From Rhodocyclaceae bacterium (GTDB lineage Bacteria; Pseudomonadota; Gammaproteobacteria; Burkholderiales; Rhodocyclaceae): a stretch of DNA of 64,000 nt. A model generated the notes under the pieces. It saw only the letters and a program-made list of their open reading frames with translations, ran no database searches and was not told the origin of the DNA. Within the stretch, counting starts at the first letter, position 1. Every line of letters starts with the position of its first letter. This document shows, piece by piece, positions 14,776 through 63,701 of the stretch. The translations under genes and the position numbers were made by a program. The stretch lies in the NCBI GenBank assembly GCA_019455325.1, contig JACFMQ010000004.1, positions 259,247 to 323,246 on the forward strand, written 5' to 3'.

Positions 14776-14801
14776 GAACGATTGATTGTTTATTTGCTTA
14801 T
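14776..14801 (-). promoter_or_regulatory. 26-nt sulfur-type box upstream of sbp
   Basis: Read on the minus strand the site begins ATAAGCAAAT and ends CAATCGTTC, 26 nt in all, and lies 55 nt before the sbp start. The same spacing and ends occur at seven other promoters in this window. It overlaps the stop codon of the upstream gene. Binding by CysB is inferred. Confidence 0.75.
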
Positions 14802-15259
14802 GAATCGTCGCCTGATTTGGAACGACGCGTTCGCTGCGGCTTCGCCGCCAGCGCCGGCTTGTCGAACGGCGCCGAGATCTCGTAGCCGTGCGTGCGCAGC
14901 AGGCGCATCGCGCTCTGCAGGGTCCAGCCGCCGCTGCGCCGCGGCGTACGGCGCGCGACCGCCGGCTCCGACACCAGGTCGCAGCCGTGCTCGGCCAGCC
15001 AGGCGCGGATGATCCGGATGCCCTTCTCGCCGATGCCATCGACCAGCCGCAGGCGGCGCACGCCGAGCGCCGCCACTTCCTCCGGCGAGAACTCGGTGCG
15101 GTCGAACATCTTGCGCAGGGCGTTGCGCTGCAGGGTGGGCAGCGCGTGCGAGGGGTGCGCCGCCGCGTCGGCGGCGGGCGGCGGCGCCGCGCCGCCGGCG
15201 TCGGGAAGCGGGGCCGGATCGCCGCCCGCCTGCGCCCGCCATTTGCGTCGAGAAGTCAT
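14798..15259 (-). CDS. Hypothetical protein with a helix-hairpin-helix-like segment
   Basis: A 153-residue protein I cannot assign. Residues 45-105 (FSPEEVAALGVRRLRLVDGIGEKGIRIIRAWLAEHG) look like a helix-hairpin-helix or a small DNA-binding helical domain; the ends are basic and proline/alanine-rich. A second helical part (residues 110-130, SGGWTLQSAMRLLRTHG) follows. An upstream ATG at 15289 would add 10 residues. It lies 35 nt after the flavoprotein gene in the same direction and may be cotranscribed, but nothing links it to sulfide oxidation. Confidence 0.6.
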   Translation of the reverse strand: MTSRRKWRAQAGGDPAPLPDAGGAAPPPAADAAAHPSHALPTLQRNALRKMFDRTEFSPEEVAALGVRRLRLVDGIGEKGIRIIRAWLAEHGCDLVSEPAVARRTPRRSGGWTLQSAMRLLRTHGYEISAPFDKPALAAKPQRTRRSKSGDDS

Positions 15260-15294
15260 GGCGACCGCGTTCCGGGCGGCGTTTCCCATCCGGG

Positions 15295-16566
15295 TCAGGC
15301 GAGCGCGTCGGCCCAGATATTTTTGGCCCAGCCGATGGCGTATGCGGCCTCGATCTCGTTGCGCTGGGCGGAGACGCCGCTGGCGCCCGGCACCACGATC
15401 AGCGTCTTCTTCTCCGCGTCGTAGCGGTGCACCGAGGCCACGTGGATCACGTTCTTCGCATCGACGAAGCTGTAGCACGTGTTGGTCATGAACGGCTCCG
15501 GGTTCGGCGCTTCGCCCGCCAGCAGGTTGAGGATCGCCGCCGCCGCCACCTTGCCGTGCTGGTTCGCCATGAACCCCGACTTCGGCATCAGCGGCGCCGA
15601 CAGCGTCGAATCGCCCAGGATGTGGATGCCCTTGGCGTTCACCGATTCCAGCGACAGCCAGTCCACCTCCGCCCAGCGGCCGTTGGCGAGCTTCGCTCCC
15701 GACTTGGCGACGATGTCGCCGGCCCGCTGCGGCGGCACCACGTTGAGCACGTCGGCCTTGACCTTGTCGAATTCGAGGATGGCCGTGCGGTTGGCGACGT
15801 CCACGTCGCGCAGCTCGCTGTTCGGGCGGTAGTCGACGATGCCCTTGTACAGCTCGTCCCAGGCCTTGGTGAACAGCCCCTTCTTCGAGGTCACCTCGGG
15901 GTTGGCGTCGAGCGCGATCACCTTCGACTTCGGCTTGTGCCGCTTGAAGTAGTCGGCGATCACCGAGATCCGCTCGTACGGCCCCGGCGGGCAGCGGTAC
16001 GGCGCCTTCGGGATGGTCAGCGCATAGACGCCGCCGTCCTTCAGGTCTTCGAGCTGCTTTCTGAGCGCCACGGTCTGCGGGCCGGCCTTCCAGGCGTGCA
16101 GGATCTTCGCCTGCGCGTCCGCCGACTTGAGGGCCGGCACCTGGTCCCACAGGAAATCGACGCCCGGCGACAGGATGGCGCGGTCGTAGTTGATCTCGCC
16201 GCCCTTTTCCAGTTTGATGGTCCGTTTCTCGGCGTCGATGCCGAGCACGCTGTCGTGCACCACGCGCACGCCCCATTTGCGCAGGCCCTCGTAGCTGACG
16301 GTGATGTCGGCGAGCGCCTTGTCGCCGGAGATCACCAGGTTGGAGATCGGGCACGAGATGAATTCGGTGTTGCGCTCGATCAGCGTCACATCGACGCTGC
16401 CGTTGCTCCACAGGCGCAGGTACTTGGCGGCGGTGGCGCCGCCGTAGCCGCCGCCGACCACGACGACGTGGCCGCGGGCCTTGCTGGCGCCGCCGGCGCA
16501 GCCGCCGAGGGTGGCGACGCCGGCGGTGGCGCCGAGGGTCTTGATGAAATCGCGACGATTCAGCAT
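15295..16566 (-). CDS. fccB: Flavocytochrome c sulfide dehydrogenase, flavoprotein subunit
   Basis: A 423-residue FAD enzyme that oxidises sulfide in the periplasm and passes electrons to its cytochrome partner. The N-terminus carries a Tat signal (NRRDFIK) followed by a hydrophobic stretch. The FAD-binding motif VVVVGGGYGGATAAKYL starts at about residue 34. The two cysteines expected to form the redox-active disulfide are visible in APYRCPPGPYER and MTNTCYSFV. The cytochrome gene lies 11 nt upstream. The pair could also serve polysulfide or thiosulfate-linked oxidation; sulfide is the usual substrate. Confidence 0.93.
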   Translation of the reverse strand: MLNRRDFIKTLGATAGVATLGGCAGGASKARGHVVVVGGGYGGATAAKYLRLWSNGSVDVTLIERNTEFISCPISNLVISGDKALADITVSYEGLRKWGVRVVHDSVLGIDAEKRTIKLEKGGEINYDRAILSPGVDFLWDQVPALKSADAQAKILHAWKAGPQTVALRKQLEDLKDGGVYALTIPKAPYRCPPGPYERISVIADYFKRHKPKSKVIALDANPEVTSKKGLFTKAWDELYKGIVDYRPNSELRDVDVANRTAILEFDKVKADVLNVVPPQRAGDIVAKSGAKLANGRWAEVDWLSLESVNAKGIHILGDSTLSAPLMPKSGFMANQHGKVAAAAILNLLAGEAPNPEPFMTNTCYSFVDAKNVIHVASVHRYDAEKKTLIVVPGASGVSAQRNEIEAAYAIGWAKNIWADALA

Positions 16567-62286: not shown

Positions 62287-63608
62287 GCGGCGGCTTCGAG
62301 CGCGGAGCGGCGCAGCGCGTGGTCGAAGTCCGCCTTGATGTCCTCGATGTGTTCGATGCCGACCGAGACGCGGACCAGGTCCGGGCGCACGCCGGCGCTC
62401 GCCTGCTCGGCCTCGGAAAGCTGCTGGTGCGTGGTCGACGCCGGATGGATGACCAGGGTCTTGGCGTCGCCGACGTTGGCCAGGTGGCTGGCCAGCTCGA
62501 CGCCGTCGATGAAGCGGCGTGCCGCCGCGGCGCCGCCCTTGATGCCGAAGTTGAGCACGGTGCCGAAGCCGTTCTTCAGGTACTTCTTCGCCAACGCGTG
62601 GTAGGGGCTCTCTTCCAGGCCGTTGTACTCGACCCAGGCGACCTGCGGATGCGCCTTCAGCCAGCGCGCCAGTGCCAGCGCGTTATCGGCGTGCCGCTGC
62701 ACGCGCAGCGACAGCGTCTCGACGCCCTGCAGCAACTGGAAGGCGTTGAACGGCGAGAGGGTCGGGCCGATGTCGCGCAGGCCCTCGACGCGGGCGCGGA
62801 TGGCGAAGGCGATGTTGCCGAACTGGCTGCCGCTGCCGAAGGCCTCCCAGAAGTTGAGGCCGTGGTAGCCGGGCGCCGGCTCGGTGAACAGCGGGAAGCG
62901 GCCGTTGCCCCAGTCGAAGCGGCCGGCGTCGACGACGACGCCGCCGATCGAGGTGCCGTGGCCGCCGATCCACTTGGTCGCCGATTCGACGACGATGTCG
63001 GCGCCGTGGTCGATCGGCCGCACGATGTAGCCGCCGGCGCCGAAGGTGTTGTCCACCACCAGCGGCACGCCGGCCTCGTGCGCGACCTTCGCCAGCGCCT
63101 CGAAATCCGGGATGTTGAAGCGCGGGTTGCCGATGGACTCGACGTAGATGGCCCTGGTCCGCTCGTCGATCGCCCGGCGGAAGCTTTCCGGATCGTCGCC
63201 GTCGATGAATTTCACGGCGATGCCCAGCCGCGGCAGCGCGACCTTGAACTGGTTGTAGGTGCCGCCGTAGAGCTTGGTGGTCGACACGATGTTGTCGCCG
63301 GCCTGCGCGATGGTGGTCAGCGCCAGGAACTGCGCGGCCTGGCCGGAGCTGGTGGCGACCGCGGCGACGCCGCCTTCGAGCGCGGCGATGCGCTGCTCGA
63401 AGACGTCGGTGGTCGGGTTCATGATGCGCGTGTAGATGTTGCCGAACTCCTTCAGCGCGAAGAGGCGCGCGCCGTGGTCGGCGTCGTCGAAGGTGTAGGA
63501 CGTGGTCTGGTAGATCGGCACGGCGCGGGCGTTGGTGCCCGGCGCCGGCGACTGGCCGGCGTGGACCTGCAGGGTTTCGAAACGGTAGGCGGCTTTGCGG
63601 TCGCTCAT
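62283..63608 (-). CDS. metY: O-acetylhomoserine sulfhydrylase
   Basis: A 441-residue PLP enzyme making homocysteine directly from O-acetylhomoserine and sulfide. The PLP lysine is in [36 protein letters not shown] at the start and [20 protein letters not shown] are family signatures. The ATG at 63608 has AGGAG 8 nt upstream; 63626 would add six residues. With metX it forms the direct-sulfhydrylation operon, under a sulfur-type box. Confidence 0.94.
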
Positions 63609-63675
63609 GGCGGGGCTCCTTGGCACAGGCGTGATGACGATAGCCGCGGAAGCTACCAGCGGCGGGCCGCCGGAC

Positions 63676-63701
63676 GAACGACGAATTTCTCAGATCGATA
63701 T
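63676..63701 (-). promoter_or_regulatory. 26-nt sulfur-type box upstream of metY-metX
   Basis: Read on the minus strand it begins ATATCGATCT and ends TCGTCGTTC, 26 nt, 67 nt before the metY start. Its first ten bases equal those of the rhodanese-operon site. Confidence 0.7.

Follow-up and report, generated by a model that had tools for sequence, protein, structure and literature searches.

A 26-nt box at a fixed distance from a -10-like hexamer marks a probable SsuR/Cbl-type sulfur-acquisition regulon in a Rhodocyclaceae bacterium

We analysed a 64-kb stretch of DNA from a Rhodocyclaceae bacterium (GenBank assembly GCA_019455325.1, contig JACFMQ010000004.1; hereafter the window), in which a 26-nt sequence, ATA[A/T]-N16-TCGTTC (the box), recurs before genes of sulfur uptake and metabolism, and which also encodes a LysR-type regulator of the CysB family. 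A pattern scan finds eight exact matches to the box in the window and no ninth, confirming the positions and orientations of all eight sites listed in the initial annotation; 0.07 matches are expected by chance and the largest number in any of 100 dinucleotide shuffles was one. In all eight sites a TANNNT hexamer stands exactly 20 nt 3' of the box, and this composite of box, 20-nt spacer and hexamer did not occur even once in the 100 shuffles.

The highest-scoring composite (52.5 bits; 14750-14801, minus strand, box 14776-14801 with TAGACT) lies before sbp, which is followed by cysT, cysW, cysA and the regulator gene. The composite at 24095-24146 (41.4 bits; minus strand, box 24121-24146 with TAGATT) precedes genes for a rhodanese, CysK, EpsC, a helix-turn-helix (HTH) protein, an encapsulin and a cysteine desulfurase, and the one at 24194-24245 (38.0 bits; plus strand, box 24194-24219 with TACGGT) precedes OsmC-like, acyl-CoA-dehydrogenase-like and rubredoxin genes. 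A NitT/TauT-type ABC transporter, a CooC-like protein and a carbon monoxide dehydrogenase (CODH)-like protein are encoded in the run behind the composite at 31740-31791 (39.0 bits; minus strand, box 31766-31791 with TAGGCT), and two EAL-type genes, the first a weak match, with a HAD-like gene stand behind that at 32577-32628 (43.4 bits; plus strand, box 32577-32602 with TACAGT). The composite at 41234-41285 (47.0 bits; plus strand, box 41234-41259 with TACATT) heads genes for an SsuA-like substrate-binding protein (SBP), ABC, thioredoxin-like, CoA-transferase-like and metNIQ-like proteins and those that follow. The last two, both on the minus strand, precede a polar amino acid ABC transporter that is cystine-like but below curated cut-offs (45.8 bits; 54191-54242, box 54217-54242 with TAACAT) and metY-metX (43.4 bits; 63650-63701, box 63676-63701 with TAGCTT). 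The earlier placing of sbp and metY behind boxes therefore holds. These scores, 38.0-52.5 bits, come from a matrix built only from other genomes, namely 53 sites selected because they match ATAW, TCGTTC and TANNNT exactly, and drawn partly from the same 80 loci that were later scanned with it.

The distance from box end to called gene start is 45-123 nt across the eight sites. The 53-123 nt reported initially was thus nearly right, the lower end moving to 45 nt when the start of the SsuA-like gene is taken as 41305. The spacers between box and TANNNT are G+C-rich, and both they and the flanks vary from copy to copy. Judged from this layout, box and TANNNT form one composite promoter of a predicted activator type, with TANNNT as its putative -10 element. 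The operator consensus from 63 sites is ATAAGCATATAAGAAATTCTTCGTTC. In the matrix the A/T-rich middle is conserved as well as the ends, which were set by the selection pattern of its training sites.

Beyond the eight sites, the matrix finds three degenerate composites in the window, all on the minus strand, before cysT (21.3 bits; 13589-13640, box 13615-13640 with TAGACT), before a cytochrome c/SQR-like gene pair (25.8 bits; 16930-16981, box 16956-16981 with TAAACT) and before a conserved 95-aa open reading frame (ORF; 24.2 bits; 35315-35366, box 35341-35366 with TACGCT). After these 11 sites the next score in the window is 2.3 bits, and the best in the reversed window is 5.5. When the box part is scored alone, 11 of the top 13 matches are the known sites, each with TANNNT at +20, and the other two have no TANNNT anywhere from +10 to +34. 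Of the degenerate copies suspected in the initial annotation, those before cysT and the cytochrome gene (there named fccA) are thus recovered, while the matrix scan of the window finds none directly before the encapsulin or phasin genes. No box was seen before an orthologue of the cytochrome c gene in the other genomes scanned. The 95-aa ORF (34995-35282, minus strand) has no NCBIfam match, and boxed relatives of it occur in L016, G056 and G031. A further degenerate box of 30.8 bits lies 1.5 kb past the window (C2:324720, minus strand), before a gene that we take to encode a YeeE/YedE-like transporter.

The regulator gene (9768-10700, minus strand) had been named cysB. Its product scores 480.7 bits against NF009327 (cut-off 402), as a LysR-type member of the CysB family does, 413.5 against the NCBIfam Cbl model, which is under that model's cut-off of 491, and 376.3 against the CysB model. 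In a tree of 51 rows, in which the E. coli branches are long and no row is an SsuR known by name, a 96/100 branch sets the window type and E. coli Cbl apart from E. coli CysB and a second paralogue of the same genome, encoded on another contig (C9 517665-518588). The window protein does not behave as a CysB orthologue, being 50.6% identical to Cbl and 46.4% to CysB; for the C9 paralogue the values are 50.0% and 55.4%, respectively. The gene order sbp-cysT-cysW-cysA-regulator is that of the ssuR cluster of B. cenocepacia; PMC7970998 gives sbp-cysT-cysW-cysA-ssuR for Burkholderia. By profile match, tree and gene order, the regulator is thus predicted to be a Cbl/SsuR-type member of the CysB family and not CysB, the CysB-type gene being the one on C9.

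The presence of the composite follows that of this regulator. CysB-family proteins (E 1e-60) number one to three in 55 of 61 family genomes, and the window type, defined by at least 60% identity where the next best matches reach at most 53%, is found in 31. The composite occurs in 15 of the 61 genomes (reversed control, one), all of them among these 31, and in none of the 30 without the window-type regulator (Fisher p 6e-6, with no correction for phylogeny). Of those 30, 24 keep a paralogue of 45-53% identity that is taken here as CysB, G053 alone of these having been placed in the tree; this genome, a single contig of the same genus, has neither the window-type regulator nor the composite.

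The genome-wide scan proposed in the initial annotation was run with the box pattern. The whole genome (4.46 Mb) contains 11 boxes, eight of them inside the window, and TANNNT stands at +20 in ten of the 11, so that the composite occurs ten times, again with eight in the window, against none for the reversed control. The ninth composite precedes a predicted ABC transporter at a place 10 kb beyond the window, and the tenth lies on contig C14; the eleventh box (contig C21) is G+C-rich and lacks TANNNT at +20. The idea of a CysB-family site defining a local sulfur regulon is thus upheld for the family and, mostly, for the locality, with boxes 10 kb away and on another contig, but not for CysB itself.

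The spacing is also kept elsewhere. In 80 loci from named genomes, each surrounding the regulator gene and most of them from Rhodocyclaceae or other betaproteobacteria, a search blind to the -10 element finds 37 boxes with N16 spacing and three with the reversed pattern; other internal spacings give 0-6, save 15 at N8, which we put down to an internal ATAAG repeat of the box. Of the 37 boxes, 27 have TANNNT at +20, and at any other offset it occurs in at most one, many of these boxes being sbp promoters of related species and hence not independent events. With the matrix, the same loci yield 142 matches of at least 18 bits (four reversed), spread over 70 of the 80.

The genes behind the boxes recur as well. 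We tallied 198 sites in other genomes (199 less the window's own cysT site), taking as first gene the longest ORF that starts within 260 nt of the site. This gene resembles a window protein at 149 sites and has no window match at 49. Relatives of sbp (54 sites), cysT (19), the regulator (13) and cysA (5) are numerous, sbp, cysT, cysA and the regulator being over-represented because the 80 loci centre on the regulator; others are the EAL genes (6 and 3), rhodanese (6), a serine hydrolase (5), cysK (4), the SsuA-like gene (3), the encapsulin (2, both from a single genome) and metY (1). These tallies show no box before relatives of the OsmC-like gene or the cystine-like transporter. A small ORF of the window (14798-15289, minus strand), which has no NCBIfam match, has relatives behind boxes at 18 of the 198 sites.

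A related element exists in a second flavour. Most sbp promoters of genomes without the window-type regulator carry an element ending CTTTG, CTTTT or ATTTC, and [C/G]GTT at box positions 22-25 is found in 24 of the 32 sbp promoters from genomes that have the regulator versus one of eight from genomes without it, that one being a -3.0-bit noise match. Two extra sbp copies in the same genome (C21:90463 and C22:33208-34179), which were left out of this count, have CysB-flavour boxes ending CTTTG and CTTTC. In G003, G031 and G053 the CysB-type gene has beside it a box that ends CTTTT instead of TCGTTC, and the genome under study has a CTTTT-flavour box at this place too, with one mismatch at the first base and TANNNT at +20; the gene opposite its cysB across this box presumably encodes a sulfite reductase. 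The recognition helix reads SKHIKDLE or SKNIKDLE in the window type versus mostly SKQ[V/I][R/K]LLE in the CysB type among the sequences listed. We infer that two CysB-family paralogues may read two versions of one box.

Taken together, we consider it very likely that the composites are promoters of an SsuR/Cbl-type sulfur-acquisition regulon, activated by the 9768-10700 regulator when sulfur is short. Placed against the putative -10 element, the operator would span about -58 to -33, its TCGTTC end standing in for a -35 element, an arrangement as in activator-dependent sigma-70 promoters. In SsuR work (Iwanicka-Nowicka 2007, Lochowska 2011), a stretch of about 44 bp that precedes or overlaps the -35 element is reportedly enough for SsuR binding, a requirement that fits this placing. 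The regulator would bind the operator and recruit sigma-70 RNA polymerase under sulfur shortage. This would turn on genes that take up and salvage sulfate, sulfonates, methionine and cystine, genes for cysteine and homocysteine synthesis, and also the sulfur-handling encapsulin, the EAL-type genes and the CODH-like enzyme. Sulfur is the probable signal because the targets include sulfate uptake, rhodanese/cysK/EpsC, metXY and sulfonate-type, methionine-type and cystine-like transporters. Since the regulator gene lies downstream of sbp, the regulator probably controls itself too. Acetylserine, named together with CysB in the initial annotation, is thus a mere candidate for the inducer here; Burkholderia CysB reportedly does not need it.

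Several observations weigh against this reading. The tenth composite of the genome (on C14) precedes only a small ORF, and G013, one of the 15 composite-bearing family genomes, has only a poor match (18 bits) that may be due to chance. Among sbp promoters with the regulator, six of 32 score below 18 bits (e.g. -8.5, 3.1, 7.9 and 13.3), and four of the eight without it score at least 18 bits (29.5 at most), their differences lying chiefly at the 3' end; CysB could therefore share some sites. At order level the link to the regulator is weaker, with the composite in 12 of 40 genomes with the regulator versus 21 of 210 without it (p 0.0017, phylogeny ignored), absence of the regulator being uncertain in this comparison as the protein search scored at most nine candidates per genome; the composite itself shows a weak excess there (33 of 250 genomes versus 22 control genomes, by hand count). 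Across the class (370 genomes), exact composites do not exceed the control, with 32 genomes versus 60 reversed by hand count. The E. coli Cbl/CysB system is alike in its regulator family, Cbl falling on the window protein's side of the 96/100 branch, but the regions upstream of tauA and ssuE, examined for wide conservation, have no composite (scores reach 12.2 and 17.6 bits, and the 17.6-bit match points away from ssuE).

The alternative closest to our reading is that the CysB-type paralogue on C9 is the main binder, with the window regulator secondary or redundant. Most of the 61 family genomes have a CysB-type paralogue, and where it is the only one, sbp is still preceded by related boxes. 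Overlap of CysB and SsuR targets is known from Burkholderia. PMC3633348 describes one Burkholderia operon under both. However, the TCGTTC composite is found in none of the 24 genomes holding only the other paralogue, the boxes beside CysB-type genes end CTTTT, and the [C/G]GTT signature goes with the window-type regulator, which together make a leading role for CysB unlikely. Much less probable still is that the box belongs to the promoter of an alternative, extracytoplasmic function (ECF) sigma factor, for which TCGTTC would be the -35 element: the constant distance of TCGTTC from a second conserved element would suit such a promoter, but TANNNT, the second element, is of the usual sigma-70 kind, conservation extends to the A/T-rich middle, and presence tracks a LysR-type regulator. 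Eight copies inside 49 kb could also bring to mind a dispersed repeat or mobile element without regulatory role, or mere chance. With unlike spacers and flanks among the copies, a negligible chance expectation, and placement before relatives of the same genes in other genera, we give this explanation almost no credence.

The targets of the proposed SsuR/Cbl-type regulon lie in several runs. The sulfate/thiosulfate uptake genes cysA, cysW, cysT and sbp occupy 10711-14720 (minus strand), and metX and metY 61069-63608 (minus strand). Sulfonate-type and methionine-type transport genes and genes of CoA chemistry behind box 41234 extend over 41305-51839 (plus strand) as a putative single transcript. 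The two EAL-type genes (32711-34498, plus strand) stand behind a sulfur box and recur as box targets in other genomes. The run at 18385-24001 (minus strand) encodes the rhodanese, CysK, the serine acetyltransferase EpsC, the HTH protein, a family 2A encapsulin and its cysteine desulfurase cargo; the encapsulin is the fifth gene behind box 24121, and the run probably forms one transcript with it. In G059 the run recurs in this order but lacks cysK, led by a box of 49.0 bits; the same order is found on the Variovorax plasmid described below. In two relatives the encapsulin has a direct box of its own (G031, 47.2 bits; G056, 40.2 bits). An encapsulin cluster also occurs near a CysB-family regulator in one of three plasmid loci with such regulators: on plasmid 3 of Variovorax sp. 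PBL-E5 (L280), a family 2A cluster with EpsC and rhodanese genes (10982-21014) lies about 4-9 kb from the regulator gene. Boxes there are weak, the three loci giving nine matches of at least 14 bits, of which the single strong one (43.6 bits) is in another Variovorax. A family 2A encapsulin with cysteine desulfurase (SrpI) is induced by sulfur starvation in Synechococcus, according to PMC8049743. The shell and cargo families are alike, and here the genes sit amid sulfur genes behind a sulfur-regulon box; the systems differ in that a title cited in that paper names CysR as regulator of the plasmid's genes, while the box here is of SsuR type.

The least expected target is the run at 26091-31642 (minus strand), which encodes an ABC ATPase, an SBP, a permease, a CooC-like ATPase and a protein with a CODH scaffold (26091-28019, minus strand). 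The latter scores 489 bits against TIGR01702 (cut-off 478), within the range of the Ni-CODH family, and its closest solved relative is 6t7j (E 8.2e-130). A CODH-like match at E 1e-40 is found in four of the 61 family genomes, including the one studied here, the others being G056 (70%), G058 (56%) and the distant G023 (32%). Aligned to 6t7j and 6vwy, the window protein and those of G056 and G058 retain the HGH, CC, GCNNP, GC and HMG.C motifs, but the DYQC of solved CODHs reads DVQD in all three, so that Asp replaces a cysteine that we take to belong to the C-cluster and the full set of presumed ligands is absent. In G056 a box (38.3 bits) also heads the CODH run, making it a boxed run in two genera; the order there is box, a gene presumed from its start to be CMD-like, SsuB-, SsuA- and SsuC-like genes, an acyl-CoA-dehydrogenase-like gene whose relative in the window stands behind box 24194, a CooC-like gene and the CODH gene. 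Of the three CODH-like members, two have a CooC-like gene beside them and two are led by a sulfur-regulon box. In G058, which has the CODH and transporter genes without the window-type regulator, no box of at least 14 bits is found on the 7-kb contig, which argues against a fixed link between CODH and regulon.

These genes resemble the clade B Ni-CODHs in that the CODH gene adjoins a NitT/TauT-type ABC transporter, a likeness of gene context rather than clade placement (PMC6344411, PMC13056359). Complete C-cluster motifs are considered likely for clades B to F and metal (Ni) import is proposed for the clade B transporters (PMC6344411), and the function of the transporter-linked clade B CODHs is held not to be deducible from context (PMC13056359). 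The present group is unlike them in the Asp of the DYQC motif, the CooC-like neighbour in two members and the box in two. We tentatively propose, as a possibility that we rate somewhat below even, that the regulon drives a repurposed CODH-scaffold enzyme which helps to win sulfur from an organosulfur (or COS/CS2-like) substrate of its own NitT/TauT-type transporter, with two paralogues reading two box flavours told apart mainly by their last six bases.

The SsuR regulon of B. cenocepacia is the nearest known system, alike in the regulator gene that ends the sbp-cysT-cysW-cysA cluster and in its sulfate and organosulfur targets. Sequence homology among SsuR sites in Burkholderia is said to be limited; unlike them, the sites here share a clear 26-nt consensus at fixed spacing, and the targets include the CODH-like gene, the encapsulin run, the EAL genes and metXY. 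No description of the box was met in the part of the literature within reach, which did not extend to the key Burkholderia SsuR papers, so that it may be in print; TTCGTTC appeared in the CysB-mentioning papers found, as far as their available text goes, only in primer sequences. An SsuR/Cbl-type regulon is thus of a familiar type, here with a box that has become readable, and its CODH-like target could be new biology. The fixed-spacing box makes this regulon listable genome by genome in the family, distinct from the CysB-type box, and ties otherwise unplaced genes (the encapsulin run, the EAL proteins, the small ORFs and the CODH-like enzyme) to a probable role in sulfur acquisition. Should the proposal for the CODH-like enzyme be true, transporter-linked CODHs would gain a testable role.

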